From NCBI GenBank assembly GCA_030374765.1, contig JARGXX010000031.1, forward strand, positions 310,001 through 374,000: a stretch of 64,000 nucleotides of DNA, in the 5' to 3' direction. The notes below the pieces were generated by a model that saw only the letters and a program-made list of their open reading frames with translations, did not search any database and was not told where the DNA came from. Position 1 is the stretch's first letter. The number at the start of each line of letters is the position of its first letter. The position numbers and the translations under genes were made by a program. This stretch comes from Agarophyton chilense. Taxonomy: Eukaryota; Rhodophyta; Florideophyceae; Gracilariales; Gracilariaceae. Shown here piece after piece: positions 11,242 through 42,529 of this stretch.

Positions 11242-13480
11242 ATGGATGCAGGAAACACACCCAATCGACCAGAGCATATGACTATTACGGCTGGACAAGT
11301 TGCAACCACAACGTCGACCATGTCGCCTGACCCTCAGGTTGATACCGTTAGCGACCACAGGAGCACGAGAAGCCAGCCACAAAAAGTGCTGACCTCCCTG
11401 GACAACCCTGGAAGGATTCACCGAGCACCAACGGTGGCAGCGTGTTTACGAGAACGCCTCTCCAGGGCCACTTCTAGGCCAGGGACACCTCAAGGAGAAC
11501 CCTGTAAGACCGAAGGAATTAGAGAGAACACTGCCGCAGGGCTTGCCGACATTCTCTAGTCCCGTCTCCGTGAGCTCTGCTCAGCCCATGTGGATTCCAT
11601 TGTGGACATGCGGCTCGCTACGGCGATCGCGGATCATACGGATTACCTCATTACGAGAGTAGTCGTTAAGGTAATGGAGTCTGAATTATTCATAGAATCC
11701 CTCCTACAGGCCATTCAAGGAGCACTCACCAACCAGTCAGGCAAACCCGTCTCTAAGACCACTCTCCAAGCTAACCATCCGGTTTCCATATGGCAATCGC
11801 CTACCGAACCCTCACGAGTGGCGGCATAACCCACCCTTCGCCGTGCACACGATCAGGGAAATCCAATGGAAAGACAATCTAGGAGCAGAAGAGAAGCTCT
11901 GCGTCTAGAAGAGAGACAGATTGCTTGACCCAAAGGACAATATGAGGTAAAGCGACCTCAAGGCTCCATCGGATCTGATAGAGAGATCGATCCTTTACGT
12001 CCTCATTCCGTCGGAAAGAAACGAGGTAACCGCAGGAGAAAAAAGAAGAGAAAATTCGGACACGAGTGATCCCGATTCGGACTCAACCGAAACGAACGAC
12101 TCGAAAGTGGATGAGGCTGCCGTTCGAGGCCACAAACCACTGACAACCACAAACGAACTTTTCGTTAAGATTCTGGAATACCGGAATTGCCGATTGGACG
12201 ACAGGTCTCCGAAATATTCTGGTTCGGTGGCTCGAAGAGTCGCCAAACGGGCTAAACAGATGCAACTAACCATTACGGACAAGTGCTCGGGTTCCGATCC
12301 CATTGCTGTCCTTAGGTTTCCTAGTTTGTTCCGTACGGCGTGTGATCAGAACGGTGTCCACGAGGGAGCCGCTCTGTACATTTTCCAATTCTTCCTCACA
12401 GGACAGGCGCGTGACCGAGTGGTTTCGAAGATATCTGGCACAACTGACGGTGTGGATGCTCAAGACCGTGAGCTCCTCAGGTCATATCCTCAGGTTATTC
12501 AGTACCTCTCGGGAACCTAATCCACGGATGATGTTATAATGGATGCCTACCAGGAAGTGATATCCTTTAGGCAGAGCTCCAAAATGACTGAATCGGCTTT
12601 CGCAGAAGAACTATGAAAGAAAGATGACAGATGTGGAAACTTATTCCCCAAAGGACGGCTCAAACTCCATTTCATCACGGGATTACTCCCTGCCGTTTGG
12701 ACGCATGTCCGTATTTACCACACGGAAATCTTACAGTAATCTTTCCGACGGCTCGTAATCTATGCCGAAGGTTATGGCAAAATATACTGGAATTCCAGGT
12801 GCAATGCTGATAGATCCAGAGGATGCGCAACTCCATTGCGTAAACCAAACCAAGCCCATTTGGTTAGCTCTAAGGAATCGGACATGAATTCATCACTCCA
12901 TTACGCCGACTCGGGAGATATCATCGCGGTTAATTCCAGTGCCACTACGTCTGGGCCCCCATCATATACCTCCCAAGAAACTACAGCCACCACTAGACCA
13001 CCCACTTTAGAGTATTCCCCCTTTCCCCCCCAGAAAGACGTTTTTTTCGCTCACCAACGGCTTGCTTCCTCCGCCTTTCCATGGTCCAACTCTGTGACTG
13101 CACGAAGTATCTGCCTGAAAACTCATGCAAACATCTCTTAGCCTTAAGAGAAGAGAATCACAAGGTGCGAAGTTCAGAAGGAATGTTTAACAGGGAACAA
13201 CAACGAGCCACAAGAAAACCTGGAAGCTCCCGCTTTGCCGCACCTCCGGATACCCCAATGAAAGCCCCACAGGTCCATGCCATTGTGGACCCTACCGACG
13301 ACCTCGAATAGGAACCCCATTCTCAGAAAGAAACGGAAACCCCATCGGAAAACGCTTAGAGGGTCGACGCGAGGGAAATCTTCCGTCTCTGAATCCATGC
13401 CTCAACCAATAGGACGGTTAGGAGCCAAGGAGCTCTTCACCTCCCAATACAAACTAAAACCATTGGACCACTCGGAATAA
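11242..13480 (+). pseudogene. gag: element Y gag, broken
   Basis: A first open frame (11242-11559) starts MDAGNTPNRPEH and is Thr/Arg/Pro-rich like the N-terminus of gypsy gags. After stops, the frame at 12107-12520 carries a capsid segment, KRAKQMQLTITDK then 'GSDPIAVLRFPSLF', 'EGAALYIFQFFLTGQARD' and 'YPQVIQYL'. This aligns with the capsid of X and W (KRLSITLQ..., 'DPILVLDFLAR', 'AQAYLALPYFLKGMAED', 'SEAVQYL'). A cysteine-containing stretch at about 13085-13140 may be a decayed zinc knuckle. Several stops and shifts make it non-functional. Confidence 0.75.
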
Positions 13481-13487
13481 ACCAGAA

Positions 13488-15000
13488 TTGGAAAACAGTA
13501 ACGACCCTGTCTGTATCCTCAGGAAGGAGGATTATAAAGTTCGAACAACCATGGGACTACGTTTCAACAACTCCCGAGTGTCCACAGCCGTATTGGACAC
13601 GGGGGCGCTGGTCCCAATTTGGTCAATTCTAAGCTTTTTTCATTTGGTTTGCAAAAATTTGTTCAGGCAAGGAAGACCCCCAGGATTATCCCTGCATCAC
13701 GTAGACCAATGGACATTAAAGGATTAGTACCACTCTACCAACAATTAGGACAGTTCAAAGTCCGGAAGTGGTTCCTTGTATGTCCTAGCTTGAGCGCTGA
13801 TGCAATCCTAGGGACTTCTTTCATCGATCGATACATTTAGGCCATTTAGCCAGGCCTTAAGAAAGTTGCGTTCCATCGTGCATCTTCCATCTCCATAATT
13901 GGTTCCACCCGGGCCCAGAAGCTAACCTCAAACGAGCAATTATCTCCGAAGATACTAATTCCAATAAGGTTCGCTTATCGTCATAACGATACCCCCGATG
14001 ACCCAGACCACCTTATAGGTCCATTCCCAGTTCTCAGGTCTCGTGGCGATACAGAACCACCCGAAAACGGTTCTGAAGCACCCCACTTTAATTGCCAAGG
14101 GAGTGATGGACATTCAATCCAAGAGGGCCTTCTTGTTCACGATCAGAAACTTCCGAGATGGGCCCGTACGGTTACCTAAAGGTACAGTGATTGGCATCAC
14201 TCTACTTGCCCCAATGGCCATTATGGACGCCGAGCTGGATAAATTTTCAATTACAACTCGCGACGAGGACGTCGCCTCTTGGGAGCGGACAGTTGCTATC
14301 GGCACAAAAATAGAATCCTATAGGCCCCAGGTGATTGATCTTTTCAGGAAATACCAGACCACGTGGTCATGTAGATTGGGCAAAATCAGAGCCACTACGC
14401 ACTGCATTGACAGTCAGGATGATGCTAGACCACAGCTCCAGCACCCATACCTCAAAGGCCTGAATTGTAGGGAAGTTGTCGCCGACCAGATGGACAGAAT
14501 GCACAAAGCTCACGTCATACAGCTAGCGCCTCCTAACCAATCCAAATGGGCAAGTCCCCTTGTCCTCACGGCTAAGACAGATGGCTCCGTCAGATACTGT
14601 GTCGACTATAGGAAGCTGAACGCAGCAACCAAGAGGGACTCATATCCGATATCCCGTATAGATGACTGTCTAGATTCCTTAGCTGAAGCAGCCGTATTAA
14701 CCACACAGAACGCTAATTCCGGATATTTGCAAATCCCTATGGCTGAGGATGGGAAAGGGCTGACAACCTTCACCACCCATAATCGTCTGTTCAGGTTTAC
14801 TCGTATGCACTTTGGTTTAAGGAATGTGCCAGCGACCTTCCAACGGGTAATGGACATCATACTGTCCAGAGTCAAATGTAAAAACGCCCAACTCTATTTG
14901 GATGACGTAATCATTTTCTCACGTACCGTAAAGGAAACACCTCTGCCATGTGAAAACGGTACTAACAATCCTACAGGACGCTGTAGTAACACTTAAACCC
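13488..15000 (+). pseudogene. pol: element Y protease and reverse transcriptase
   Basis: An aspartic protease start is seen at about 13530-13620, with VRTTMGLRFNNSRV followed by the active-site AVLDTGAL; the rest of the protease shifts frame. A 317-codon frame (14043-14996) covers most of the reverse transcriptase: 'WASPLVLTAKTDGS', 'RYCVDYRKLNAATKRDSYPI', 'FRFTRMHFGLRNVPATFQR' and the catalytic YLDDVIIFS near 14897-14923. The motif A position that should read LDANSGYW reads QNANSGYL, so the first catalytic aspartate is lost. The frame ends soon after YLDD. Confidence 0.85.
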
Positions 15001-16380
15001 CGCTAATGCGCCTTCTTTCAAGCCTTAGTGAACTATCTCGGTCCCGTCGTCCTCCCAGGAAAGTTAAAGGTACCCAAACGGACCACGGATGCGATCCAAC
15101 AGGCTAAAACTCCTAGACGGATCTACGATCCTTCTTGGGCTTGGGCAATGTTTCCCGACGTTTCGTTAAAGAGTTTTCTAAAATTTCAGCCCCTCTCAAC
15201 GCAATGTTGAAGAAGGGAACACCTTCGGAGTTGAGGGCATTACCGAGGAACAATACCAGGCATTTCAGTCCCTAAAGAAAAATTTGCTGAACCCACCTAT
15301 ACTGGCTTTCCCAAAACCCAGTAGGCCCTTTTTCGTGTAAACAGACGCTCCTGATGTCCAACTGGGATGTGCATTGCTACAGGAACAATATTAACCAAAG
15401 AATTATTGACTTATTGGATACTGGAGCAGAACGCTCACCAGCGCGGAGCGATACTACAGTACTACCGGAAAGGAATGTCTCGCCATCGTATGGTCTGTAT
15501 GAATACTTCGACCATACCTCGAGGGAACTAGGTTCACCATAAGGACAGACCACGATTCACTTCGCTGGTTATTCAATATGATCGATGCATCAAGTCGCCT
15601 CGCTTGTTGGCGCCTTAGGCTGTCAGAGTATGGCTATGATATAACCTATAGGCCAGTTATTAAGCACCCGCCAGCAGATGCTCTCTCGTGAATCATTACC
15701 GACGGAACTGATGACATGCCATTGGAAGACCTCATTCCTACTCCCTTCACAGATGAAAATCTTCAGGATAATACGGAAACAGATTACCTTATGGGTACGG
15801 CCAGAGCAGATGATCCTGAGGTAAAGGAGAATGAAGTCTACTTATTGGAGTAGGAGACATTACTACCCAATTGAACACCGCCTCAGATTAATTTAATGAC
15901 CCCAGAGGAAAAAGAGCTCCTCCCTAAAACCATTAAAGAACTCCTACAGGCCCAGGTCGAAGACGAGTTCTGCAAGGAAACGGCCCAATTGGTGGGAACC
16001 CCTGGATGCTTATTCGACTACGACCGATTCGGACTACTAGGTCGCCGCTCACCACTTGATGGCGCACTCAGACAGGAAGTACCAAGGCCACTGGGGACAC
16101 GATTCTTATACCTCGCCCATTTCACTCGCTTGGCTGGTCAACCTAGGGGCCGACGAATGTACCAGAGCCTAAAGAAGTTCTTCTACTGGCCACATATGGC
16201 ATAGGACCTATGGCAAATCGCCCGGAACTGCACTTCGTGCGCATAAATCTGAGGGTCTCGCGCCAACCATCAAGCCAAATTGAAAATTTTCCCCGTCGCG
16301 CCCAATGGTAAGGAGAGCAACTAAGCACTCACGTCCCCCGGATTGGTCATGGGACGTCGACATGTCGGACACGGCACCGC
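15001..16380 (+). pseudogene. pol: element Y RNase H and integrase zinc domain, truncated
   Basis: Broken frames show the RNase H ('DHDSLRWLFNMIDASSRLA', then 'WRLRLSEYGYDITYRP') and a linker. At 15896-16204 an open frame carries the integrase HHCC zinc-binding domain ('RFLYLAHFTRLAGQPRGRR', 'MYQSLKKFFYWPHM', then after a stop 'ARNCTSC'). Traces of the integrase start ('DWSWDVDMSDTAPLVS') follow to about 16380. The catalytic core, tail and any accessory ORF are deleted before the 3' LTR. The loss explains why this copy cannot move by itself. Confidence 0.8.
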
Positions 16381-16523
16381 TCGTTTCCATGCTATTAGGG
16401 TGCTGATTATCACGAGGTTCTGACCGTGAAGGCAAGATTGGGGATTCACTTATAGGTCCAATTACGGCCAGACCCCCAGGAAGGCGTGAGGCAGTTTGGA
16501 ATTCGCCGCGACGGTCGAATCCT

Positions 16524-16711
16524 AAGACGGGAGATATGTGAAAGAGCAACGATTACGGTTGAGTCCTGTAAGCCGCCAGGGTCTGAGGTATCTTACAGAC
16601 GCCACATGGACTTTCCGACCTCAGCTGGACATGGATACGACCTTAGGACAGGCTCTACCACGCCACCTCAGGTTGAGACCAGTACGCTGACCCACCAGTC
16701 AATGCGTTGCA
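16524..16711 (+). repeat. element Y polypurine tract and 3' LTR with internal deletion
   Basis: Purine-rich AAGACGGGAGATA at 16524-16536 precedes the LTR start TGTGAAAGAGCAACG at 16537. The LTR ends GCGTTGCA at 16711. Compared with the 5' LTR it lacks about 271 bp between 'cagctggacat' and 'ggatacg'. It is followed by TACAG, the right half of the target duplication. Confidence 0.8.
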
Positions 16712-16716
16712 TACAG

Positions 16717-17960
16717 CTTTATCTACAAGGAGTACAGTTCGTCGAAAATACGGATCACTCATGTTTTTGATGGATTATGTCTATATAAAATCCTTTGGGA
16801 GGGTTAATGTGATGGCGTTTGCGCCTTTCTGAATTTGAATTTACCGGAAACTACTGGAAGGAGACTTCAAACGTTCATGCTTACGCGTTTTCGCGACTCG
16901 AAAACTTGGGCGAAAACCATTCGAAAACCGATGATGAGATACCGTATTTTGTAATGGAGAATTCGAGAACGAAAAACAAAGAAGAGCAGAACACTCTGGC
17001 TGAAGAAGATTTTGCATTTGATTTATTGGTAACCCAGACTACGAATACGGGTCCATATCATCAACTCGAACAAATAACGCTCGAAGAGCTTCTGCGTGAC
17101 CAGGTCAAGGACGCCTTCTGTTCGGCTCTCCGCTCTGCATCTATCGGGAGGAAGAAGATACCTTTTCGAGTGGATGATCGAAGATTTTTTGTTCGAACTG
17201 TCGACGCTCTTGATCAAATCTTGATATCACACGTTTTGAAGAGCATAGTACTGCATTTGGCTCATAAATCACAGTTTTCTGTTCGTCCAGGAAGAGCAAT
17301 GTTGTATCTATCCCTCAGAACAGAATTTTATTCACCTAATTTGGCAATGATGTGTCAGAATTGATCAGCATAGTGCGCAACATGCTAGAAATAGAGTTAA
17401 TTTGTGAAAGAAGGTGAAATCACTGAAATTTTTCCCGGCGTGAGCGCCTCTGCAGTATGTCAATATCGATATACTCCGAGAATGATTCGCTCGAAGCGAG
17501 AAAACAGAAACCTTCTGGTAAATACTGATCACTTCTCGAACCCTGTCAGGAGGGTTCCACTAAAATAGAACACCGCTGACGTGATAGCACAAGCGTTTAT
17601 CCACCATGGGATGTATTAATACGGACCGCCGGAGACTCTGCTCTCAGATTATGGTAAGCAATTCGGAGCACGCTTCGTTCAAGATGTGTTGAAGATACTG
17701 GTAACTAGAAATTTGGTCACCACAACACATCATCCGCAATATAACGGGCAGGTGGAACGGTACAACCGTACGCTACTCGACGCACTACGGCACTAAATCG
17801 TTGAACACCCCCAATGACTGGGATATGTTCGCAGATACTCTGCTCTACGCGTACAATACGCAGATTCATTCGACTACAACGTTAGCGCCATTGGAGCTTC
17901 TACTATCACGACGCCCACCGGCTTTGGGAATCGAGATTAGCTGAAACGGAGTCGAAGATG
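16717..17960 (+). pseudogene. pol: element Z pol, 3' part: RNase H end and integrase
   Basis: Reading resumes after element Y with 'LYLQGVQFVENTDHSC', the RNase H catalytic TDH region, then 'WRLRLSEFEF' and 'HAYAFSRLENL'. A 181-codon frame (16819-17364) holds the integrase zinc domain ('ILISHVLKSIVLHLAH' to 'LYLSLRTEFYSPNLAM', followed by CATC in another frame). The integrase core follows with stops: 'LLSDYGKQFGARFVQDVLKI', then 'TTTHHPQYNGQVERYNRTLL'. These match element X ('LLSDNGGQFASKFFQDVCRI', 'TTYHPQGNGQVERFNRTIL'). Many stops show long decay. Confidence 0.88.
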
Positions 17961-18229
17961 AGAACAAGCCGATGCCGGCTCAGTTTCAACTACTGTGGAG
18001 ACAAGAGCGACGCAAACGCACTCCACAAGCCGCAACCAAGATGGGAAACCCCTCAAGCACGCTACAAACGCAATCAAGACGGGTCAGTACGGCGGGCACT
18101 CCCGGATATCCGAGTTAGGGGCACTTCTACCTGAGAATAGAAAAGAAGGTTAAACGGAAATCCGGAAAAGAAGAGGAACGGAAGTGACGTCACATGATAA
18201 AGCCAATCGCGACTTAACCACTTGAACTT

Positions 18230-19240
18230 GTCGAACAGGGCGAGCACACGGTTTTTATCCTAAGAGGTAAAGAGGTTGATTAGCTCACTATAGACGACTA
18301 CCCAGTAACCAAAGAACGAATCATTCGCAAGGTCGGAACCCCTATAGGTAATCACTGCGGGAGGCTTCGCAGGACAACCAAGAGGACTCTCGATTTCATG
18401 CCAAGATCAAGGGATAGAAACGTACCGCCCGATGCGCGAGTTAAACCGAATTCGGCCGATTTTCAGCGTTTGGTAAGGGACCAAGTATCCTAGTCATGAT
18501 CGAGTGCGTTTCTCTCATCGAGGCAGTTCCCAATAAGGATCATGGCTTTTCCGAAGATAATGGAACTGTGCTCGTATCTGAGAACTGTCGAAACTGAGGG
18601 CCATGTTGGATACTCAGCGTACGCTGCGCCACAGTTGAACATCCTAATCCACGAGATTCCCGACATACGGGTAGGCTTCTCCCTTCGTTCAAGCGATCCA
18701 TTTATCGAAGTTCAAAGCTTCTTATGATGGAACTGTCCCAATCACGCGAGGCATCCACTTGTACACTTGTCCAGGAAACGTTTCGCAGGCTTTCGCCCTG
18801 CTTTCGGAGCCAAAGTGGCTTACTGTGTTATTTTGAATCGCACAGTGTCTGAGCCAGTCGCTCTTGAACAGATCATACCACAGAATACCGTTAGGAAGTT
18901 TAACAGCGTCTACATATTTACCAATGAATTTTCGTCGTGGACAGCCTTAGGGTTAAACCAGCGAGCACGAGCGAACATCGCGGTGTGCTGCATTGGGGTC
19001 CGCCAGACGAAGTCAGCATAGTGCAGGAAGTTCCGGATCGCAGACAATGATGAATGCAGAACGGTTGCTGTGGAGGAAAGGTATACTGGGCTACGACCAG
19101 AGGAAGAAGTCATAAGTGGCGCTGTTCGAGATCTTGGAGCGAAACCACCCGAAAAGGCGGTGGTTTGATGATGTACTGGGTTATCCAGGTCGTCGAATGA
19201 CGTTTGAAGATTCACAATTAAGCGGGTATTGTTCATCGTG
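18230..19240 (-). pseudogene. decayed antisense accessory ORF of element Z, homologue of 31792-33687
   Basis: The minus strand, opposite to Z gag-pol, carries a broken coding region aligning with the 631-codon antisense ORF of element X. Matches in order are 'ARARWFNPKAVHDENSL' to 'SRAPWFHPTAVRDDELI', 'DAVKLPNGI' to 'DGLLPGGLP', and 'IRAQFHYLRKS' to 'LRAEFRYLQRH'. Further on, 'GYLVPYQTLKIGRIRFNS' matches 'GFLVQYSHVELERIRNTA', then 'IGRYVSIP' matches 'VGRFVPLP', 'SPLGCPAKPP' matches 'VPRGCFAELPP', and 'SFFGYWVVVYSEL' matches 'PNSGYWALVAAEW'. The region sits between integrase and the putative 3' LTR, the same slot as in X. Stops and frameshifts abolish translation. Homology is evident by eye over about 300 residues. 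Confidence 0.8.
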
Positions 19241-20500: not shown

Positions 20501-20557
20501 TTTTAGCCATATTCCTTGTAAGGATTGTGACTGGTAAGTGAGGCGGTGACGCCTCGA

Positions 20558-20620
20558 GCGTCTTCAAACTCAACTTAGAAGACGCCCCTCCATCAGGGGA
20601 GACTCCCATGTCTAGTTTTT
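20558..20620 (-). promoter_or_regulatory. element W gag-pol junction: candidate -1 frameshift site with hairpin
   Basis: On the minus strand, gag ends with codons AAA AAC TAG (20612-20620). A short GGGAGTCTCCC hairpin follows after a 7-nt spacer, then a perfect stem GCGTCTTC/GAAGACGC (20558-20585). Slipping back one base at AAA AAC puts the ribosome in the protease frame, which stays open in W for about 40 codons up to a TAG. Element X has the same arrangement. The heptamer is G AAA AAC, not the classical A AAA AAC, so function is inferred. Confidence 0.45.
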
Positions 20621-21025
20621 CCGGTTCGAAGCTTCCGCAACAAGCGGTCGACCTCCATCCGGGGAAACAGACGGATTCCTATTGTTGGGTACGATGTTCT
20701 GGTTCTGCTGACCAGCGTTCGACGTTTCGATTACTGCACGCGGTAGGACCGTTGTCGACGGACCAAAATTAGTTTCGGCTCGAAGATACGACCAATTCGG
20801 AACTCGAGCTTGATCGGCAGGCGATAGAGACTCGTATTGAGTGAAAACAGACGGCATCTCCCTCAAGGTCAACGTGCAACGGAGCGCGATTCGGTAACAG
20901 AGATGACAAATAGGTGCACTCGACGCATTAAATGGCGGGCGAACATTCATGTCCGTCCGTGGGTGTGGTTGTGTGTCTCTCCACCCAGGACGGGTTGTAC
21001 GCATTGCGTTTGTCGCATGAGCGAG
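20612..21025 (-). pseudogene. gag: element W gag, C-terminal part after a frameshift
   Basis: Open frame 20612-21004 continues the gag of element W after a frame change at about 21010-21030. It reads RPGWRDTQPH, then 'ICHLCYRIALRC', then 'QYESLSPADQARVP', matching the nucleocapsid end of X gag ('RPGWRDTAPR', 'ICYLCYLRGHKAPDC', 'QYEALTPEEKARVP'). The zinc knuckle C-X2-C-X4-H-X4-C of X is damaged here: the histidine and spacing are lost. Confidence 0.8.
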
Positions 21026-30412: not shown

Positions 30413-30833
30413 TCGTCAGTCATATTCTCTACAGCGCGCTTTTAGTAGTTTGTTTTCGCCTCTTTAACCCTACTGAAACTTGCAGAGAGTGTTTTAATTT
30501 ATTCAATAAAAAAATGAATTAAATTAAACGTGATTCTTTCATAGTAATTTGTGATACAAACTTTCGAATAAAAACCTGTACTGAACTGTCTAATTTGCCC
30601 ATAAATCATCTGATCTAGCACTCCATTGGTGTTTTCAGTAAAGTGTACATCGGAAATTCGTCATGAAAGATCCGTATCAGTCATATTTAAATCATTCATG
30701 TACTGTTTCTAAACATTTGACTTTTTTACAAGCGCATTATCCTGCTAAAAATCATAATTTAATTCATACGTAAAGTAGGAATAAAGTAGCATATAACTTT
30801 CTAACACTTTATCATAACTTTTTAAAGCCATTT

Positions 30834-31749
30834 TGTGGAGCAAAACCCGGCGACGGGAAGTGCTCTCAAGGTGTTCGAAGCCTTGCTCCCTGGGGGAGGC
30901 AGAATCAGAGACAGAGCCCTCCGTTCCACCCGTAGTGTGGGGTGTAACTCCCACGGGGGATTCCGGCAGTACCGACGGAGGTGAGGGGTAGAAACCGTTG
31001 GATCGGGAATGTGTATGGGTATCCCAAAGAATGGTGGAAAATCCGGCGAAGAGGAAAAACGGGGCGAGGGTAGGGCACTAACAGGCATCGGACCCGAGAA
31101 CCAGAAAAGGGGCGAAACAACAAAAGAAACCCAATACAGTGGCGAAAACCTGTCCTCGAAAGGAAACACAAAAAGCACGCAACAATTAATCAGAACCCCC
31201 ACGGGGTATCGTGCCCGCAGGTCGTCTGAGCGGTCCCAAGGGGGTGGTTGCACGGAACCCAAACATGGGCACTCTCCAAGTGGAGTCGTGTCCCTACGCA
31301 GGCGTTGCTAACCAGAGCCCGTTCCGGGTTGTAAGGCCGAAACGATGGCGACGAAGAACCTCTAAAGGTATCGAAGACCAACCTTGGTTACCATTTACTC
31401 TGAGCTTCGGACTGTCAGATCTCATCTCCCTAAGTAGGGCCCACTAACTAAAATCTACAGTAGTGCACACCTGCTCAGGGCCATACACGTGGAGATCCCA
31501 CTGTCAGGGCCCAAAAGTCCAACGTTCTAACAAATATCCGAAAATCGGTGCCAAAATTAAGCCACGTGTATCACGGGGCCAATCCAACCATGGGCCATCC
31601 GAATTGTCACTTCATAGGCGAACTCTAACCAGAAAACAGTGCCACCTCAGCACAACTTAGAGGGGATCATAGTCATAATCCTCGGAGGTTTCAATCCTCA
31701 TTCTATGAGTTGCATCTTCAAGTATCCCCTAACTGGGCGTTGCTCTACA
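30834..31749 (-). repeat. element X 3' LTR
   Basis: In plus coordinates TGTGGAGCAAAACC to GCGTTGCTCTACA. Near-identical to 41614-42529 and to the inverted solo copy at 2269-3191. The polypurine tract AAGGAGGGGAGA (minus strand, 31750-31761) abuts it, which fixes it as the 3' LTR. Confidence 0.93.
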
Positions 31750-31791
31750 TCTCCCCCTCCTTAAGACGAGGAAGAACATTCCGAGCCGCGG

Positions 31792-33687
31792 GTGTCTCGC
31801 TTTCCGGTCACTATATATACTTCTCTCCCAATGGGGTCCTTCACCACTTCTGAGGATCGCCACAAAACCGGCACATCGGTACAACTTTCTTCTACTCCTC
31901 CGACTTTAGGCGATAAGCAACTTCTCGCAACAGCAGTCTCAACCAGCCCTCTCAAAGGAATGAACCCATACGTCCTCAACCCGCTCTCGGGGCCATCGGC
32001 CTCCGCGCCGGCGGACAACGAAGCTCCCCAGCAGGGTGGGTATTTCTCCGGTTTGGAGGCGGCTCCGTCAGGTACCGAACCTTCCGCCTCGGCGAGCAAT
32101 CGACATCCTCAGGAGGATTTGGACATTAACGCGGTGGCTTGGAACTCCGCTCATGGGATGCCCTTGGTAGCAAACTCCAGAGGTTGGATCTCAAACGAAT
32201 CCTTTCGAAGGTGGAGTCCCCTTACCAATCCGGTGATATATTCCCGCGCTCCGTGGTTCCATCCGACAGCGGTTCGCGACGATGAGCTCATCGACTCCTA
32301 CGTGGAGGACGGCTTATTGCCGGGTGGCCTACCTGTCGAGGTTGTACGTTCTCCCGATTGGAGGGCGCGGGTAGCCATAGAGCCTCAGTATCTATACCGC
32401 GGTCGAGGGGAGTCCCTGGACAAGGCGCGCGCAGCGATGGCGGCTCTGGACTACCAGCGATTGGAGAGGTCACGCTTTGACCATCTGGTTCCCCCGAAGT
32501 ACGGGTTCGATGTCGCCTATTACCGCACGTTCGGTGAGGTCTCCTACGGGGATAACCTGGCAGCCTTTCCCGAAGCCGAGTTCCGCGGACCGGGTTTTCC
32601 TCTCCGAGAAGATATGCTCCAATGGAGTCGTCCCATCCTTCGGGCTGAATTCAGGTACCTTCAACGGCATTTTACCCAGTATGGGTTCGGTCGACGCGTG
32701 CGCTTCGAGCGCCGCTCGCACTCCCGTTTCGGGTTCCTTGTCCAGTATTCTCACGTGGAACTGGAGCGTATCCGTAACACGGCGAAGGTTGGGCGATTCG
32801 TGCCACTTCCAGCTTGGTGGAGTAAGGTCGAGGTCCCCCGAGGGTGCTTTGCTGAACTGCCCCCATGCATCTACTATATCGGGTCTCGTTTGATGCACGA
32901 CCCGAACTCGGGATACTGGGCCCTCGTTGCAGCCGAGTGGGCAGCCCGCGTAGCGGCGCACCTCCTCTGGGATGCTCATGACCATTTCCGTATCTGGTAT
33001 ATTACTCCGATGCTACAGACCATCATGCGTCAGATCGACCTTGTCCCAGCGTTGGGTTCGGCCAGCAGCGTGCAGGACCTGTATCCAATCTTGGACGTGA
33101 TCGACAACACCCAATGGGATCGAGTTCCAGTGGAAAATCAGCCCGCAGGGGAAGAATCCGCGCGAGACAAGTCTCCTGGCCGGTACGATCCGGGCTCCGG
33201 TAACTGGGTCTATTACAATCCCTTTGAAGGGGTTCGCATTAGCGCGGCGCAAGCACGGGCGCTGATTGACTCGCCTCGACCGATGCCGGTGGGGCACCCG
33301 ACGGGGTTCATTTATACCGACGATTACGAGTACGAGCCTCCAGTAGACCTGGACGATCCAGCGTTGGATAACGACATGCCAGCTCCTAGTGGAGTACTCC
33401 CTGTGGAGCCATCTGCACCCTTCCAACCAGTGGGAACGACCTCAGCTGCGGCGGCGAATGCATCCGGTGGCGGTCCATCTGCTCCCCCCGGGTGGGGTGT
33501 GAACACCCTTGCGCAGGCGCCGGTTGTCACTCCGCAAGCGGATAGTGTGCGACAAGGCCTCGTGAACGCGGGCTTTCCGATTCCCCCGGGTATGACGGAT
33601 GTGAGCCAGATGTGGGCTTTCGCCTCGGCGTACCATCAGGGTCAGAATCCCAACGGTGGGGCGGGTCCCTCTTCGGGCTTTCCGTAG
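31792..33687 (+). CDS. antisense accessory protein of element X, 631 residues, unknown function
   Basis: An uninterrupted frame between integrase/chromodomain and 3' LTR, on the strand opposite to gag-pol. Residues 1-110 are Ser/Pro/Ala-rich and probably disordered. Residues about 115-450 look globular, rich in Trp, Tyr, Phe and Arg, with a basic patch GFGRRVRFERRSHSRFGF and hydrophobic 'YWALVAAEWAARVAAHLLW'. The C-terminal ~180 residues are Pro/Gly/Asp-rich. No zinc finger, protease, polymerase or signal peptide is seen. A decayed homologue lies in the same slot of element Z (18230-19240), so it is an inherited element gene. A TATATATA at 31812-31819 lies inside the first codons, so the real start may be a later Met (about residue 57). 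I do not recognise the family; capsid-like, RNA-binding or regulatory roles are all possible. Confidence 0.8.
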   Translation: MSRFPVTIYTSLPMGSFTTSEDRHKTGTSVQLSSTPPTLGDKQLLATAVSTSPLKGMNPYVLNPLSGPSASAPADNEAPQQGGYFSGLEAAPSGTEPSASASNRHPQEDLDINAVAWNSAHGMPLVANSRGWISNESFRRWSPLTNPVIYSRAPWFHPTAVRDDELIDSYVEDGLLPGGLPVEVVRSPDWRARVAIEPQYLYRGRGESLDKARAAMAALDYQRLERSRFDHLVPPKYGFDVAYYRTFGEVSYGDNLAAFPEAEFRGPGFPLREDMLQWSRPILRAEFRYLQRHFTQYGFGRRVRFERRSHSRFGFLVQYSHVELERIRNTAKVGRFVPLPAWWSKVEVPRGCFAELPPCIYYIGSRLMHDPNSGYWALVAAEWAARVAAHLLWDAHDHFRIWYITPMLQTIMRQIDLVPALGSASSVQDLYPILDVIDNTQWDRVPVENQPAGEESARDKSPGRYDPGSGNWVYYNPFEGVRISAAQARALIDSPRPMPVGHPTGFIYTDDYEYEPPVDLDDPALDNDMPAPSGVLPVEPSAPFQPVGTTSAAAANASGGGPSAPPGWGVNTLAQAPVVTPQADSVRQGLVNAGFPIPPGMTDVSQMWAFASAYHQGQNPNGGAGPSSGFP

Positions 33688-34033
33688 TTCCGCCTTCGGG
33701 TAATTGTAGAGTCCATAGCTTGGCGACAATAGTAAACTTCTGATATTTGCATAACTTCTTTTCTTCTTCCTTCCTAGAATCTTAACTTCTACTTCATCTT
33801 CTTCATTCCTTCTTAGGATCTTCTTCTCCACTTCGTGGGTCTTCTTTTCCTTTTTTTCATCATAAACTGTCCCGATAACCGGTGCTGTGTTCCCCGGTTA
33901 ACGGCGCTAGGCCGAGGGCCAGTAGACATTCCCTCTCAATACGTGTTCTTCGGGATACTCTCCTCAATTCCTCTTCAGAGGTCCAACATCTTCCTCACTT
34001 CGAGGTCCCATCCACAACAGTTCCCGTGGTGGC
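33688..34033. other. spacer between antisense ORF and chromodomain
   Basis: 346 bp with pyrimidine-rich runs. Transcripts of the antisense ORF and of gag-pol would overlap across it. No gene seen. Confidence 0.4.
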
Positions 34034-34395
34034 TTACCCGACTTGGGCACGATCCAGACTTGGAGGCAAGGTTACCCGAGCGCGTCGGTGATAGGATAAA
34101 ACCTTAGACCTCGGAAGGTGCTCAATGGGTTCCACTGTATCCTCATCAGGCGAGAATCCGTACCATCGGACTTGGTAGCGAACTTCTCCCTCGGAGGTGT
34201 AGATGTGACGCACGATGCGATCGATAACGAATTCCTGCGGATACACTTTTCCCTGTTCGGGCTTCTCTTCCATCTTGGAACGCTCTAGTTCCCTTGAGGG
34301 TGTCAACATAGGGTCTAGACACACCCCGGTGGGTTCTTTTCCGTGTTGCGTGCGGGTCTCAGCACTTCGTCCAAACGGCGCCGAGTGGCCTGTGG
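34034..34395 (-). pseudogene. element X chromodomain, out of frame with integrase
   Basis: Minus-strand frame ending at 34034 reads 'EFVIDRIVRH' then RYQVRWYGFSPDEDTVEP and 'IEHLPRSKVLSYHRR' (core 34085-34234). This is a chromodomain: beta strand, then the W-x-G-F and D/E-x-T-x-E-P motif, and a C-terminal helix. The aromatic-cage positions are F, W and F. Chromodomains at the integrase end are the mark of chromoviruses, where they steer insertion to modified histones. The frame is separated from the 555-codon integrase frame by stops between 34395 and 34534, so this copy cannot make the fused protein. Confidence 0.82.
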
Positions 34396-34533: not shown

Positions 34534-36792
34534 TCAGGGGGGTACGACTTCAACGTCCACCCGAGCTACGGGGACGAAGGTTGCTCTTGTGCAACGCGCC
34601 GTGCGACGGAGGCGGTTTGCGCGACGGTTGGTCGTCAGAGCCTTTGATTGGCTGGGTGCCATTCGACGTGTGCCACATAAATGCGCGGGCGCCGGTTGCC
34701 ACTCCGCAAGCGGATGTGAGGTGGCGCTTTCGACACGCGCTAGCACTCTCCTGAGCTGTCCCCGACGGGTCTCACTCATTTCTTTCCCATTCCTGATGGT
34801 TCTAGTGTCTCCATAGGAGTTCCTACTCCCATTCCATAACGGAAAGCCAAATTTGGTCAACCTCGTCGTCGAGATCTTCCCCGTGCGGGTCCGCTGACAC
34901 AGCTCGTTCCCGAGAAAGCAGGGTTTAAGTGTGCGACACCTCGGTGTCTCGTCCGCGGCGGCGGGTGATCGTCGGCTCTGTAGGCGTTCCGGGTGCGGAG
35001 TTCTCCACACGACTCTCCCTAGGCGGGGTTTCGTCATCTTTTCTGACGTCGTGCTCGGCTGGGTCGGCGGTGATGTCCCTACCCATACGCTGGGTTGTGA
35101 CTTCTCTTTCGCCGGCTCGGTCGGGCTCGCCGTCTCACTGTGAGAACTAGATTCCCTGTTAGGGCGACTGGCTGACGCCGAAGCATCGTCCTGCGAAGGA
35201 ACTAAGTCCTCCTCCCCCTCCTTAGGCGGAGAGCCAGGAGGTTTGATTACCTCCGGTGGGGGAGTAACTCTGTAAGAGTTCGTTGACTGGGCCCTTGAGG
35301 GAGCGGGCCCAGGTTCGGGAGTATCCGAAGTTTCCGGTAGGTCGTTTAAACCACGTTCCGGGTGCGGAAGTATAACGGGGCGGGTGTTCAAATCTCCGCC
35401 TGACGGGTTAACTTCCGTTGAATCATCCCCTGTGGAGGGCGTTGGTGCCGACACCACTTCCACATTTGGGTTGGGCGCTCTTGTGATGCGGTCCCTGGAG
35501 ATCTGTTCGTGGGGGTTAGCGATATCCAATACCACCGTGTCCGGGTCTACAGAAACTACACGATAGGGTCCGTCCACAATTGGCGAAAGCTTGTGCCTAC
35601 GTTCCTTTTCAGGATTATAGTATTCCTTTCGAAGGAAGACGAAGTCGTCGGGCTCCACCTGAGGTAGAGGTTTGCGAACCCGATTGTCAAAGTCCTTCTT
35701 GTAGGCACGTTGAGCTTTGTCCATTGCTTTCCGTGCTATCGGCACCATCTTCGTAAGCCACTCCTTCCAGGCTTCTCGGTACAATCCCGGTGACGGGTAC
35801 GTCGACAGCGTCGGTTGAGCCTCGATGGCGACCGGCGGCGGTGTCCTCGACAGTACCAGTTCGAATGGGGATAACGATGTAACCCGATGTACCTGGGTGT
35901 TGTATGCATACGTGATAGCGTCTGTGTACAAGTCCCAATTCTTGGGGTGATCCGCAACATACGATCTCAAGGCGTTGAGTATCGTGCGGTTAAACCTCTC
36001 CACCTGGCCATTCCCCTGAGGGTGATACGTAGTAACAAATAAATTCCTTACATCAAGGATTCGACATACATCCTGAAAGAACTTTGATGCGAATTGCCCT
36101 CCGTTGTCGGATAACAACTGCACCGGCGGTCCATATACGAACACCCAATGGGTCACGAACGCTTGCGCGACGGTAGTGGCGGTGATCCGCTTCAGCGGCA
36201 CAGTTCTCGTTAGCTTAGAGAATCTGTCAGAAATGACAAGCAGATACCGATGACCTCAAGGCGTCCTGATAAACTCCCCTAGGATGTCTATGGCCACGAA
36301 TTCGAGTGGAGCCCGTGACGGGAACAGCGTCAACTTCTTAGAGTACTTCCGAAGTTTGACGTCATTCTTGGCACAATTGGCGCAGGCCCGTCTGACGGCG
36401 TAACAATCGAATGCCATTGCCGGCCAGTAAAAGTCCCTTCTCAAAGTGAGGTACAGTTTTCTTCCCCCGGGGTGGGCGCCAACCTTCACATAGTGAGTGA
36501 GGTGTAATACCCTCTGTTGTAGGGTGTGCGGCACCACTATCCTCGGGCGAGGTCCAACGGTCCTGATTAGGTAACCCTGATCGTCGTCCTTGAAAGGTAA
36601 CTGAAATCCTGCGTTGAGGCGAGCCCGAATCCGTGTACAGAATGGGTCGAGCTGTTGCTCGCGTATCATCTCCTCTGGAGAGATAGGTATGAAAGAGCCG
36701 GTCGGCGAATCCAGACTCTCGTTGACGAGTATATCGTCACAAACATCATCCGTCAGCGGTTGAGCTCCTCCCTCGAGGTCCAATACCATAAA
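34534..36792 (-). pseudogene. pol: element X integrase and proline-rich tail
   Basis: Direct continuation, in the same frame, of the pol ORF after its TGA at 36793. It opens with a linker, then the HHCC zinc domain ('QRVLHLTHYVKVGAHPGGRK', 'DFYWPAMAFDCYAVRRACAN', C-x2-C). A second in-frame TGA lies at 36256-36258, inside 'GEFIRTP-stop-GHRYLLVIS'. The catalytic core follows: 'LLSDNGGQFASKFFQDV', 'TTYHPQGNGQVERFNRTIL', then 'YAYNTQVHRVTSLSPFELVL'. A typical C-terminal fold ('DFVFLRKEYYNPEKERR', 'GPYRVVSVDPDTVVLDIANP') precedes about 250 Pro/Ser/Thr-rich residues ending at 34534. Apart from the two stops it looks well preserved. Confidence 0.9.
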
Positions 36793-39162
36793 TCATGGGA
36801 TGTCATCGTCCTCGTAGGGTTTCGTTTCCGCTGTGGTTCCCAAGTAGAATAGTGCATCAGCCTGAGTGTTCAGCTTCCCTTTCTTGTACAGGATCTCAAA
36901 GTCGAATTCCGACAGTCGGAGACGCCAGCGCATAAGGCGGCCCGAGGGTTCGGAGATCTCCAGGAGCCAACGCAAGCATGCGTGGTCCGTATGGACTTTG
37001 AAACGAGTACCCATCAGATAGGGGCGAAGTGTAGCTAAAGCCCACACAACAGCTAAACATTCTTTCTCGGAGACCGAGTAGTTCCTTTCATGGACACTCA
37101 GGGAGCGTGACCAGTACCCAATAGGGTGACGTTCACCATCCTCAGAGGATTGGAACAGTGCACACCCTACTTGGTTTGCACTAGCCTCGGTGTCCACTTC
37201 GTAAGGGAGCCCAGGATTGGGTAGAGCCAAGATTGGCGGCGATGTTACGGCATTCACCAGTGCCGTGAAGGCAGACGCTTCCGCGACGCCAAAAGGTTCC
37301 AGTTTAACTGGTTGTCCCTTCGTCAGGAGCCTGTTGAGGGGGGTGGCAATATCCGCAAAGTTCGGGACGAATCGGCGATACACGTTACACAGACCTAAGA
37401 AGGATCGCAACTCCGTTTGAGTTTTCGGGTGTTTTGCTTCCTTTAAGGATTTCACTCGTACTTCATCGATTGAAAGCTGTCCGGAACCGATGATATGACC
37501 CAGATACTTAACCGAATCGGTGAAAAACTCGCACTTCTTGAGTTTCAAGGTGATTCCCGCGTCGCGGAGTATCTTCATTACGTCCCTGACGTGTTCGAGG
37601 TGGTCATCCAGGTTGTTGGAGAAGACAATAATGTCGTCTAAATACACTAGACACGTCCTCCACTTGAAGGGAGCCAACAGATTGTCTATCGCCCGTTGAA
37701 ACGTTGCGGGGGCATTTGTCAACCCAAAAGACATCCTCCGGAATCGGAAAAGTCCTTGATGACACACGAGAGCCGTTCTGTCTCGATCTTCCTCCCTAAT
37801 AGGGACTTGCCAGTAGCCCGAATTGGCGTCGAGGGTAGAGAAAACAGTAGCGCTCCCAAGGGAGTCGATGTATTCGTCCATCCGAGGGATCGGGTACACA
37901 TCCTTAATGGTTACCTCGTTCAGGCGTCTGTAATCGATGCAGAAACGCCACGATCCATCCGGTTTCGGAACTAACACCACTGGTGAGGCCCAAGCGGACT
38001 GGGCAGGTTCAATTACGCCCGCTTTAAGCATCTTTTCCACCTGAGATTTCTCCTCTTCCCGAGCTTTCGGTCCAGCCCTGTAAGGGTGTTGGGCAATAGG
38101 CCGAGTTTTCGGTAACAAGTCGATGCGGTGTTCAGTAATCCCAATAGTTCCAAGGGAACCATCCCACATGGGGGTAAATTCACGAAGCATGTGCCTCAGC
38201 TTCTCCCGATGAGATGAGGGTACATGGTTGAGATCCCATTCCTCCAATTCCTGAACAGGATCCGTCTGGTCTGCTCCTGTGATAGGGGCCGTAACCTTCT
38301 GAGGTTTAAAGTGTTCAGCGTGTGGAGCTGCAGTCGTATGCTCACCGTCTTCCGCGATTTCGGCAGTGTCCTCCCCCTCCTTAGGGTCCGCCACACCAAG
38401 GACCTCTGCGATAGAGATATTTGTAGGTACGACCGCATGCGGGTGTGGAAGAACAGAACCCAGGATCTGGTGTTTGACCAAATGCTGCGTTGTCTTTCCA
38501 ATGTTGGCTACCAAAACCTTGAAAGGTTTATCCGGTTCCACGGAGACAACCCCATTCGCAAGGGCGAGTTGACGCCGCGTATACAGAGACGGGTTGGGTT
38601 GTACCACATGCACACCAATTTGCTTGGTAACAACTGTGACCCAAACCTGAGTTTCTTGCGGGATAGCCATTGACTTCGCAACCTTTACCCGTGTAGACAC
38701 CGGGTCCTTCTTCACAGATTCCTGCGCGACAGGGAGAGGAACGCGTGTTCGCGCTGCTCCCTGTAAGGGTTTACGAACGATTGGGATCGTAGACCCGTCT
38801 TCGAGTTCCACAGTTCTATTCCGAGGACGGATGGCTTCCACGAAGCGGTCGCAAAAGTCACAACCCAGTATGACTGGTGCTGCAAGTGACTTGCATACAA
38901 TAAACTCTAGCTGAACGAGATAGGAGCCTAACCTCACCATGAGGGAAATTGTCCCTAGTGTCCGTAGCGGGTTGTTGTTCGCATCGGCGATATCCAAACG
39001 TGGACCGGTACGAACTTGAACCCGGAGCAGCGGGGGTAATAATTCAACATGAATTAAGTTAGGAGCGGCTCCTGTATCCAGGACAGATACTTGACGAACC
39101 ATAAACTTGTTGGACAGGCCGAAGTCGGCGAATACTTTATAATTCCGCTTGGCCATTACCAT
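36793..39162 (-). CDS. pol: element X pol: protease, reverse transcriptase, RNase H (789 residues)
   Basis: Aspartic protease at residues about 5-110 ('NKFMVRQVSVLDTGAAPNLI', active-site DTGA). Reverse transcriptase at about 390-570, with VLVPKPDGSWRFCIDYRRLN, 'STLDANSGYWQVPI', 'FRRMSFGLTNAPATFQRAID' and catalytic 'YLDDIIVFS'; all three aspartates are present. RNase H at about 650-780 ('YEVDTEASANQVGCALFQS', 'NYSVSEKECLAVVWALATLR', 'VHTDHACLRW', 'TQADALFYL'). The start ATG is internal; no ATG joins it to gag, so it is probably reached by frameshifting from gag (39360-39365). In this copy a TGA about 90 bp upstream of the ATG blocks that. The ORF ends at a premature TGA, with integrase continuing in frame. 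Confidence 0.93.
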   Translation of the reverse strand: MVMAKRNYKVFADFGLSNKFMVRQVSVLDTGAAPNLIHVELLPPLLRVQVRTGPRLDIADANNNPLRTLGTISLMVRLGSYLVQLEFIVCKSLAAPVILGCDFCDRFVEAIRPRNRTVELEDGSTIPIVRKPLQGAARTRVPLPVAQESVKKDPVSTRVKVAKSMAIPQETQVWVTVVTKQIGVHVVQPNPSLYTRRQLALANGVVSVEPDKPFKVLVANIGKTTQHLVKHQILGSVLPHPHAVVPTNISIAEVLGVADPKEGEDTAEIAEDGEHTTAAPHAEHFKPQKVTAPITGADQTDPVQELEEWDLNHVPSSHREKLRHMLREFTPMWDGSLGTIGITEHRIDLLPKTRPIAQHPYRAGPKAREEEKSQVEKMLKAGVIEPAQSAWASPVVLVPKPDGSWRFCIDYRRLNEVTIKDVYPIPRMDEYIDSLGSATVFSTLDANSGYWQVPIREEDRDRTALVCHQGLFRFRRMSFGLTNAPATFQRAIDNLLAPFKWRTCLVYLDDIIVFSNNLDDHLEHVRDVMKILRDAGITLKLKKCEFFTDSVKYLGHIIGSGQLSIDEVRVKSLKEAKHPKTQTELRSFLGLCNVYRRFVPNFADIATPLNRLLTKGQPVKLEPFGVAEASAFTALVNAVTSPPILALPNPGLPYEVDTEASANQVGCALFQSSEDGERHPIGYWSRSLSVHERNYSVSEKECLAVVWALATLRPYLMGTRFKVHTDHACLRWLLEISEPSGRLMRWRLRLSEFDFEILYKKGKLNTQADALFYLGTTAETKPYEDDDIP

Positions 39163-39300: not shown

Positions 39301-39365
39301 GGGCGTCTTCAACTCCGGCTTAGAAGACGCCCCTCCCGCAGGGGAGACTCCCAAGTTTAGTTTTT
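39301..39365 (-). promoter_or_regulatory. element X gag-pol junction: candidate -1 frameshift site with hairpins
   Basis: On the minus strand gag ends AAA AAC TAA (39357-39365). A 7-nt spacer leads to GGGAGTCTCCC, then a 10-bp perfect stem GGGCGTCTTC/GAAGACGCCC (39301-39332). One base back, the frame runs through the hairpins toward the protease; in X it meets one TGA (about 39252) that is absent from W. The same layout at 20558-20620 in W supports a function. Confidence 0.5.
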
Positions 39366-41386
39366 CGAAGCGGACCCCACCGAACTCGGTGCAGCTGCCT
39401 CGAAGGGGACCGGTTGTTCCCCGTTCGCGGGTACAAGTTCTGTTTCCCTGTCAGCAAGGTGGGCTCGGAGTATCCTTTGTTCTTCATAGGACCTACTCGG
39501 GACTCGAGCTTTCTCCTCAGGGGTCAGAGCCTCGTACTGAGCGATAATTCGTGAACCCTCCCGCACGGGAAATGTGCAGTCTGGTGCTTTGTGACCACGG
39601 AGGTAACATAAATAGCAAATCAGCTCTGCCGGGTTCGGTTGTGGACGTGAATCCACGCGACGTGGTGCTGTATCCCTCCATCCGGGGCGAGAGAACCGAG
39701 CAGCGGTATTCGCAAAAGGTAGCGATGCGGCTGGCACCCTCCGTCCGTGGGTATAGAGTGCAGGGTCTTCATCCGTAGTTGGAGCGGATGTCGACGGCAA
39801 CTCAGACGTACCCATAGATTCGGGGTTACTTCCCATGAAGTGAATGTTATCATTGACCCCCACAGGGGCAGGGCCTTCTGCGAGTGACAAAGACGAGTTA
39901 CCTCCATCGGCGAGGAGTGCACTTGTCGGCCGACTCTTTCGGTTCTGCCGGGCACGGAGAGTATCCCCCTTAGCCTGGGCGTACTGAACCAGTTCCAAGT
40001 AGGTCATCTTGCGCTTCTCTTCCCGATGTCGGGCAACCAATGCCCTTATCGAGGGATCCAAACCATCCACAAACATGGTGCATCTCTCGTAGGCGGGGAA
40101 TACATTCCCGCATCGGTGACACGCTTTATTCAAGCGAGTTGAATACACCGTTTCGGTTTCCATCGGCTTCTGCCGCGTATCCCTTAATGCAAGGATTGCT
40201 TCCTGAATCGCATTTCCAGTAGCGTATGACCTCAAGAGGTACTGCACCGCTTCGGACCAGCACGTGACTCCCCCTTCCGAGGCTCGGGATGATCCACGGA
40301 CGGAGCTGAACTGGTCTTCAGCCATCCCCTTTAAGAAATAGGGTAATGCAAGATACGCTTGCGCTTCACTCATACCGAAGATGTCAGCCTCCTGGACAAA
40401 CCTCGCAAGGAAATCGAGCACCAGAATTGGGTCTGTTCCTGTGAACTCCCTCTTCTGTAGGGTGATGCTCAGCCTTTTGATGTAGTCCTTGACCTTACCC
40501 GTTCCGCGGGATGTTCGATCTCCCGAAGGGTTATCCAACCGGTAATAGCGGTACGATAGCAGCTTCCGATAGAGAGGATTCGTCAGCTTCAGCTCCCTTA
40601 ATCCAAGGTGTTTCCTACCCTTCTTCCGGGTACGGATTGCCCCTGAGAGGTGTAAGTAGCCTTCGACCGAGTCGCCCGGGATGACCGGCGTTCATCTTCA
40701 CTATCCGAAGATTCGGAGGACGAACTCGATGGCGAGCGATTGGGATCGGAATCCGATAAATCCTCTTGGAGGTGAACCCTCTTCTTGGACTTGCGGCGGT
40801 CCCGTTTAGCGGAGCGGTATTCTTCGTCTTCCGAAACGTCGGGTTTATCCTTCGAGGCTTCTGTGTCTCCGTCCATACGGATAATGGCCTCGAGGGTGTC
40901 CAGCCGAGCTCGGAAGCGTTCCGCTTGCACGCGGTGTTCCTCCACGAGGCTCCGGTACTCCGGGATAAAGACCCCAGGGGTACCAAAGCTTTCTAAAAGG
41001 GAGTTCACATCCCTCCTCAGGGTACGAAGGTCATCGGCGACTCTCTGCACCGAGGCGTCCTCCACCTTGAGGCGGAGGGTAGTAACCTCCTGAAGGAGCT
41101 CGACGTGAGCCGCGTTGGCGATATCGATTCGAGTCTCCAGGCGCTGTAATTCAGGGTCGGCCCGACTTCGGGGTGCTGCTGAGGGGGTCTCCACCACTGG
41201 AGCTGGGCCCACAGCTACGACCTCTCGAGGACCTGAAACCACTGAGGGTGCTCTCCGAGTGCCCGGATCGATACCGGAATCGTTCCGACCTTCGGGAATT
41301 GAGCTCCTCGGCTTAGGCGGGGCCGGGGGCACTGAATCCGCTTGACGGTTCGATCCAGTCGTGGAACCACGGGTAGGCGACGACAT
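39357..41386 (-). pseudogene. gag: element X gag, split by a one-base frameshift
   Basis: N-terminal frame 40598-41386 starts MSSPTRGSTTGSNRQ and holds a coiled-coil-like stretch ('ADDLRTLRRDVNSLLESFG') and an Arg/Ser/Asp-rich middle. C-terminal frame 39357-40538 holds the capsid ('KRLSITLQKREFTGTDPILV', 'QAYLALPYFLKGMAEDQ', 'ACHRCGNVFPAYERC', 'MFVDGLDPSIRALVARHREE') and a zinc knuckle ICYLCYLRGHKAPDC (C-X2-C-X4-H-X4-C). Comparison with W places the break at the C-run 40640-40643, where one base appears to be missing. Gag builds the particle and packages RNA. A sequencing error in the homopolymer cannot be excluded. Confidence 0.9.
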
Positions 41387-41611: not shown

Positions 41612-41613
41612 CT

Positions 41614-42529
41614 TGTGGAGCAAAACCCGGCGACGGGAAGTGCTCTCAAGGTGTTCGAATCCTTGCTCCGTTGGCGAGGCAGACTCAGAGACAGAGCCCT
41701 CCGTTCCACCCGTAGTGTGGGGTGTAACTCCCACGGGGGATTCCGGCAGTACCGACGGAGGTGAGGGGTAGAAACCGTTAGATCGGGAATGGGTATGGGT
41801 ATCCAAAAGAATGGGGGAAAATCTGGCGAAGAGGAAGAACGGGGCGAGGGTCGAGCACTAACAGGAACCGGACCCGAGAACCAGAAAAGGGGCGAAACAA
41901 CAAAAGAAACCCAATACAGGGGCGAAAACCTGTCCTCGAAAGGAAACACAAAAAGCACGCAACAAGTAAGCAGAACCCCCACGGGGTATCGTGCACGCAG
42001 GTCGTCTGAGCGGTCCCAAGGGGGTGGTTGTACGGAACCCAAACGTGGGCACTCTCCAAGTGGAGTCGTGTCCCTACGCAGGCGTTGCTAACCAGAGCCC
42101 GTTCCGGGTTGTAAGGCCGAAACGATGGCGACGAAGAACCTCTAAAGGTATCGAAGACCAACCTTGGTTACCATTTACTCTGAGCTTCGGACTGTCAGAT
42201 CTCATCTCCCTAAGTAGGGCCCACTAACTAAACTCTACAGTAGTGCACACCTGCTCAGGGCCATACACGTGGAGATCCCACTGTCAGGGCCCAAAAGTCC
42301 AACGTTCTAACAAATATCCGAAAAGCGGTGCCAAAATTAAGCCACGTGTATCACGGGGCCAATCCAACCATGGACCATCCGAATTGTCACTTCATAGGCG
42401 AACTTTAACCAGAAAACAGTGCCATTTCAGCACACCTTAGAGGGGATCATAGTCATAACCCTCGGAGGTTTCAATCCTCATTCTATGAGTTGCATCTTCA
42501 AGTATCCCCTACCTCGGCGTTGCTCTACC
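41614..42529 (-). repeat. element X 5' LTR
   Basis: Same length (916 bp) as the 3' LTR and nearly identical; the outermost base pair is changed (CTACC in place of CTACA). In element orientation, gag follows it. Confidence 0.93.

Follow-up and report, generated by a model that had tools for sequence, protein, structure and literature searches.

Element X and its antisense open frame

The window analysed here is a stretch of 64,000 nucleotides from the red alga Agarophyton chilense (contig JARGXX010000031.1, positions 310,001 to 374,000 of the forward strand) in which two retrotransposons, X and Z, are of main concern (Table 1). Element X lies on the minus strand between LTRs that are 96.6% identical (31 mismatches in 916), and its gag, its protease/RT/RNase H preceding the integrase, its LTRs and its polypurine tract are arranged as in Ty3/gypsy elements. 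Pfam scans of the gag-pol frames matched RVT_1, RT_RNaseH and gag, and the scores for protease and integrase (rve) fell under the cut-offs. The C-terminal end of pol carries a domain that, from its motif, we take to be a chromodomain; it is found in X and in a second family, Y (by cross-similarity), and in L070, a copy of the family to which Z belongs. X is classed as a minus-strand Ty3 chromovirus because this domain trails the integrase. The copy in the window is probably not autonomous since its pol region contains in-frame stops. Elsewhere in the window (2269-3191), an X-type LTR in the opposite orientation is 93-96% complementary to the LTRs of X and is perhaps a solo LTR.

An open frame (31792-33687) runs antisense to gag-pol in the stretch that separates the chromodomain from the polypurine tract, and does not overlap the pol frames of X. 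The preliminary description had reported this 631-codon frame between pol and the 3' LTR, and its position and strand are confirmed, though its first codon is GTG; in-frame ATGs occur at 31831 and 31960. The chromovirus label given there likewise agrees with the chromodomains of X, Y and the Z-type copy.

Table 1. Features of elements X and Z, in positions of the 64,000-nucleotide window
Feature	Position	Strand	Basis or remark
Antisense open frame (accessory gene)	31792..33687	+	GTG-opened, 631 aa; copies elsewhere in the genome
Probable coding part, starting at the conserved Met	31960..33687	+	575 aa; N-terminal alignment
Conserved core domain	32188..33270	+	Residues 120-480 numbered from ATG 31831; conservation, pLDDT 82.5, pTM 0.84
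Putative promoter (TATA-like box) of the accessory gene	31812..31819	+	Sequence
3' LTR of X	30833..31749	-	LTR pair comparison
5' LTR of X	41613..42528	-	LTR pair comparison
Polypurine tract of X, adjoining the 3' LTR	31750..31764	-	Sequence; similar block in Y
X gag, in two open frames	39357..41386	-	Second frame matches Retrotrans_gag
X pol with in-frame stops: protease-like, RT, RNase H and integrase	34534..39162	-	Open frames, Pfam, similarity
Protease/RT/RNase H of X	36793-39162	-	Within the pol region
Integrase of X	34534-36201	-	Within the pol region
Chromodomain closing X pol	34037..34288	-	Y counterpart 49% identical (E 2.1e-18)
Decayed accessory-gene homologue in Z	18278..19236	-	tblastn, P0016 match
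gag-pol remains of Z (gag, protease/RT/RNase H, integrase)	12200..18259	+	Similarity

Start and candidate promoter of the antisense gene

The antisense gene probably starts at ATG 31960. This codon is favored because the N-termini of homologues align there and because an upstream ATG present in Y is absent at L025, a diverged locus whose gene is approximately 62% identical to that of Y. The residues read from 31960, MNPYVLNP, correspond in the alignment to the N-terminal MNPNHNL of protein P0001 and MDPNAGSNPF of P0010/P0012, and Met48 is the counterpart of their first residue in the Y protein. GTG 31792 and ATG 31831 were set aside as starts on the same evidence. A longer N-terminal form is possible since shared variants in codons 1-43 of X appear to be constrained too, on small numbers (8 synonymous and 8 nonsynonymous, ratio 0.36).

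A TATA-like box, which may belong to a promoter of the antisense gene, lies close to the polypurine tract in X and also in Y and L025. At the X box, TATATA is kept in 24 of 46 X loci; most of the 22 from which it is missing read TATACATA. In Y and L025, TTTATA occurs 27 bases (counted by eye) past the TTAAG that ends the polypurine block. The box would fit a promoter located just within the element with a leader of about 90-120 bases. At the other end of the gene, a pyrimidine-rich stretch directly follows the stop in both X (window 33750-33860) and Y (L009 3060-3210), where it consists of short tandem repeats; it could be a transcript end or a second sense-strand polypurine tract.

A decayed homologue in element Z

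Element Z contains a broken homologue of the accessory gene. A tblastn search of the window with the X protein matched Z at 18931-18284 and 19185-18928 on the minus strand (E 2.9e-18), and the reversed-window control yielded nothing better than E 5. Protein P0016 is 54.8% identical to the Z gene over 217 aa (E 4.5e-72). The gag, RT and integrase of Z are on the plus strand and the accessory homologue on the minus strand, giving the same slot and orientation as in X. Thus, the decayed Z homologue proposed in the preliminary description is upheld by significant tblastn hits of the X protein at 18-19.3 kb, and the motifs quoted there, WF(H/N)P(T/K)AV(R/H)D and GYWxxV, are present in both elements as WFHPTAVRD/WFNPKAVHD and GYWALV/GYWVVV.

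Two comparisons place element Z of the window in the Z-type family: over 1014 bases, the DNA of its integrase shares 72.9% identity with the integrase of L070, and the remnant of its accessory gene shares 54.8% with P0016. In L070 itself, integrase and chromodomain are opposite to the accessory gene. Among the RT relatives of Z listed (at least 125), the other 124 are 64-73% identical to Z. One sampled relative, L069, has no accessory homologue in 2.6 kb, a stretch which also holds sequence that, judged by motif, is presumably copia-like. The antisense layout should not be assumed for every Ty3 family of this genome.

Other element remains occur in the window. Beside Z, a gag and protease fragment on the minus strand (20205-22687) is 43-59% identical to X without an adjoining pol match, and possibly represents another truncated Ty3 family. 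Fragments of gag and RT on the plus strand (3834-4287 and 9777-10664) are 47-49% identical to X and indicate at least one further Ty3 element; the X-protein tblastn over the whole window detected no accessory homologue near them. The frames at 26873-29686 (plus), which have a strong C and A skew, are presumably copia-like, a name given by motifs rather than by a family scan.

Families, slot and strand across the genome

Copies of the gene were listed throughout the 79.8 Mb genome with the best matches first, so that intact copies are favored. As judged from sequence similarity, the accessory gene is carried by at least three chromovirus families (X, Y and Z-type), whose proteins are mutually 31-43% identical, with the Y protein approximately 35% identical to that of X. 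There are at least 71 X-type genes, of which the other 70 are 93-96% identical to the window copy. At least 23 matches are Z-type, these being the top 23 of the 79 listed in the search with P0016 (55-62% identity, 575 bits or more); stops interrupt 22 of the 23, and none is among the 82 matches listed in the Y-family search. The grouping is based on a step in score, with one of the 23 checked by its flank, and we infer that they form a single family.

Of the 68 loci that were read, 46 belong to the X type and 21 to the Y type, with 39 and 18 distinct ones respectively, and the last is L025. An identical Y gene is found at four of them (L009, L010, L011 and L012) on three contigs, reflecting either very recent insertions or assembly/segmental duplication. 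In each of the 46 X-type loci, the gene is preceded by an X LTR in its own orientation and followed downstream by a pol or chromodomain match on the opposite strand, and all 21 Y-type loci have a pol tail downstream on the opposite strand; since loci were picked by the presence of the gene, these counts show the place of the gene and not the share of elements that are without it. One Y-type locus, L026, also has an X-like integrase piece upstream. Of the 68 loci, 59 (46 of X and 13 of Y) have a block that resembles the X polypurine tract with up to 5 substitutions. For 44 of the 71 listed X genes, an RT lies within 9 kb among the 150 RTs listed, in each of the 44 downstream and on the opposite strand; the other 27 have none among those 150. 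The distance to the RT is only 2.1-2.6 kb in 8 of these 44 pairs, versus 3.8-4.1 kb. At L003 (516-1064), the integrase core nearly abuts the chromodomain as if the long linker were absent, perhaps marking a deletion subfamily.

Gene capture is known for LTR elements (described in PMC7264820), so the accessory gene could be a host gene taken up by one element. At L025, the pol tail was not found within the flank, which would suit capture, though the locus retains a block resembling the end of the Y LTR. However, the gene is present in X, Y and Z, and element flanks surround 67 of the 68 loci read, among the matches listed in this genome, making capture by a single element highly improbable. With only 31-43% identity among the three proteins, any capture would be old.

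Coding capacity and selection

An open frame opposite a sense gene may arise by chance or as its shadow, and two observations on X and Y are in keeping with this: tblastx of X against Y also detects similarity, less strong, in minus frames (best E 1.1e-18), and the opposite strand of Y contains an open frame of 253 aa. The accessory frame is, however, the best of all by tblastx (E 2.9e-76). It is stop-free in 19 of 38 gap-free X copies, whereas each of the other five frames is stop-free in 0 of 38; among gap-free Y copies the figures are 2 of 13 against 0 of 13 (the copies were ranked by score, which favors intact ones). Together with the third-position bias of shared variants described below, these results leave a chance frame with next to no probability.

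Among the 39 distinct X copies, variants seen in a single copy are near neutral (177 synonymous and 423 nonsynonymous, ratio 0.79), whereas those common to at least two copies are constrained (68 synonymous and 78 nonsynonymous; ratio 0.35 for doubletons and 0.41 for commoner variants), a significant contrast (Fisher P 1.2e-4). Shared X variants fall at the third codon position in 79 of 146 cases (P 7e-7). Constraint is strongest in the core (0.31), and the N-tail (44-119) is unconstrained (0.95). The 18 distinct Y copies show the same trend without reaching significance (0.81 for singletons versus 0.66 and 0.53 for shared variants, P 0.19), and Y singletons have a slight position bias as well (P 0.04). 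The pattern in X is that expected if selection acts on active lineages and inserted copies decay.

The functional product could instead be the antisense RNA, acting as a dsRNA or interference regulator, and antisense transcripts are discussed as regulators for some elements in a review (PMC7264820). Against such a role, X and Y match at the protein level (about 35% identity, with the tblastx optimum in the accessory frame), the accessory frame alone is open in copies and the shared X variants favor third positions. These three observations argue that a protein is being kept, and the RNA as the functional product in place of the protein is very unlikely.

The accessory protein

Protein database searches revealed at least 16 homologues, the named ones being from Agarophyton chilense and Gracilariopsis chorda (including BWQ96_10156), and neither plant nor fungal proteins were among the homologues found. 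The Agarophyton chilense proteins share 85-94% identity with X or 53-90% with Y, and the tree of homologues is deep and two-sided. Searches of Pfam, PHROGs and PDB sequences gave nothing significant for the accessory protein. Seven proteins had no Pfam match at E 5, and six scanned at E 10 gave only weak matches to Ish1 and E3_binding, both in P0016. In viral contigs, 5 stretches fit a pattern and 0 were confirmed. No description of this gene was found in the titles and abstract openings of open-licence PMC literature.

AlphaFold predicts a confident, mostly helical core (pLDDT 82.5, pTM 0.84) preceded by a serine- and proline-rich N-tail without structure; after the core come a C-tail that is acidic and, at the C-terminus, a short helical motif. 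The core has an invariant pattern rich in arginine and glutamate. With a pI of 5.5, the X protein as a whole is not basic. Fold searches with the full model against PDB and viral models, and with the core against PDB only, returned no match. The C-terminus of P0016 gives an Ish1-like score (E 0.0026), which is a hint only as its best score of 18.5 bits is below the Pfam gathering cut-off of 26.6; an Ish1-like score was obtained for 2 of 8 C-terminal pieces, and a third piece scored weakly with EAD1. Two leucine-rich-repeat constructs matched by C-terminal profile A6 (E 2.7e-9 and 1.4e-4) were dismissed, as the match covers just 17 positions and was judged a short repeat-like helix match.

The preliminary description had proposed that the elements retain a gene older than the divergence of X and Z, and that the protein of this gene has no recognizable match. 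The first proposal gains support from the presence of the gene in at least three families, the shared slot and strand, the constraint in X and the deep, two-sided tree. The homologues in other elements that it called for were found in Y and Z-type elements, with a layout that is constant throughout the X-type and Y-type loci read. As to the second, no known family or solved fold emerged from Pfam, PHROGs, PDB and fold searches. It also suggested a particle component, an RNA-binding regulator or a silencing suppressor as the function, any of which is possible on the present results.

A possible regulatory role

The antisense accessory gene, lying between pol and the 3' LTR in at least three chromovirus families, may code for a nuclear protein that regulates transcription or replication of the element itself, a reading that is preferred here but held tentatively, at a little under an even chance. 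Transcription of the antisense mRNA would begin at a promoter immediately interior to the polypurine tract, with the TATA-like box some 120-150 bases ahead of the conserved Met, and would run away from the 3' LTR and stop short of the pol tail. The protein, with its S/P-rich N-tail, helical Arg/Glu core, acidic C-tail and weakly Ish1-like C-terminal helix, would act separately from Gag-Pol, and production from the opposite strand would allow its dose to be set independently of gag-pol. A dose separable from gag-pol fits a regulator better than a part of the particle. The regulatory reading is favored because the protein code is kept, the placement permits separate transcription and signatures of membrane proteins, enzymes or capsids were not recognized. 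The nuclear role that we suggest is based on analogy with GENE23 of Grande and with the TRP28 proteins of Retand.

The protein could also be a component of the particle or its assembly (a Gag partner, a capsid decoration or an Env-like protein) made from the opposite strand. It has a long, conserved, mostly helical core, and it occupies what a review describes as the retroviral env slot (PMC7264820). An Env-like protein would be in sense orientation and have a transmembrane segment; the accessory gene is antisense, and its hydropathy maxima of 0.93 and 1.22 (19-residue Kyte-Doolittle mean) reveal no strongly hydrophobic stretch. Additionally, Pfam gave no Gag, capsid or Env family, the fold searches of PDB and viral models (full model) and PDB (core) gave no match, and antisense expression would be uncoupled from that of gag, so that a particle component is considered unlikely.

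Suppression of host silencing, or another counter-defence activity, is an improbable function as well. The invariant Arg/Glu-rich pattern could suit such a protein, and the families that bear the gene are numerous in the genome. Yet no RNA-binding family or fold match was obtained, and the antisense mRNA of a suppressor could itself pair with gag-pol RNA to form dsRNA.

Comparison with known antisense genes

From flowering plants and from the fungal Boty elements, LTR retrotransposons with extra antisense genes have been described, the role of these genes being given as unknown (PMC7264820, PMC11963269). The antisense TRP28 proteins of Retand are predicted to bind DNA (PMC7264820, PMC11963269). 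Retand is a non-chromovirus that was found solely in flowering plants in that study (PMC11963269), whereas the carriers here are chromoviruses, and TRP28/Transposase_28 (PF04195), which is contained in the antisense proteins of Retand, was not found by Pfam scans of the accessory proteins. GENE23 of maize Grande is likewise antisense in the corresponding slot; according to the review it is nuclear and has a promoter of its own upstream (PMC7264820). Its host is of another kingdom, and the likeness is one of layout, drawn from the description in that review and not from sequence. Outside plants, Boty brtn of Botrytis cinerea is, as here, an additional antisense gene of a Ty3 element (PMC7264820, PMC8365987), but it is fungal and was compared by description rather than by sequence. 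In HTLV, the 3' LTR holds an antisense promoter (PMC7264820), and HBZ/APH-2 are retroelement regulatory proteins coded antisense (PMC11963269), an analogy of layout only.

What is new is that the carriers are chromoviruses of a red alga, that the protein family is a different one, that at least three families in one genome have the gene and that it is under constraint in X. The numerous open copies and the four identical Y loci make direct testing feasible, and the core is a structural target if its fold is new. A wider proposal, which is possible but rather doubtful, is that red-algal chromoviruses possess an ancient, lineage-defining antisense gene for a self-promoted regulator of unseen fold, invented independently beside those of plant and fungal Ty3 elements and located in the same slot as HBZ of HTLV. 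The slot and strand shared by diverged families, together with the constraint in X, suggest that an antisense-encoded regulator may be a recurrent solution among Ty3 elements.
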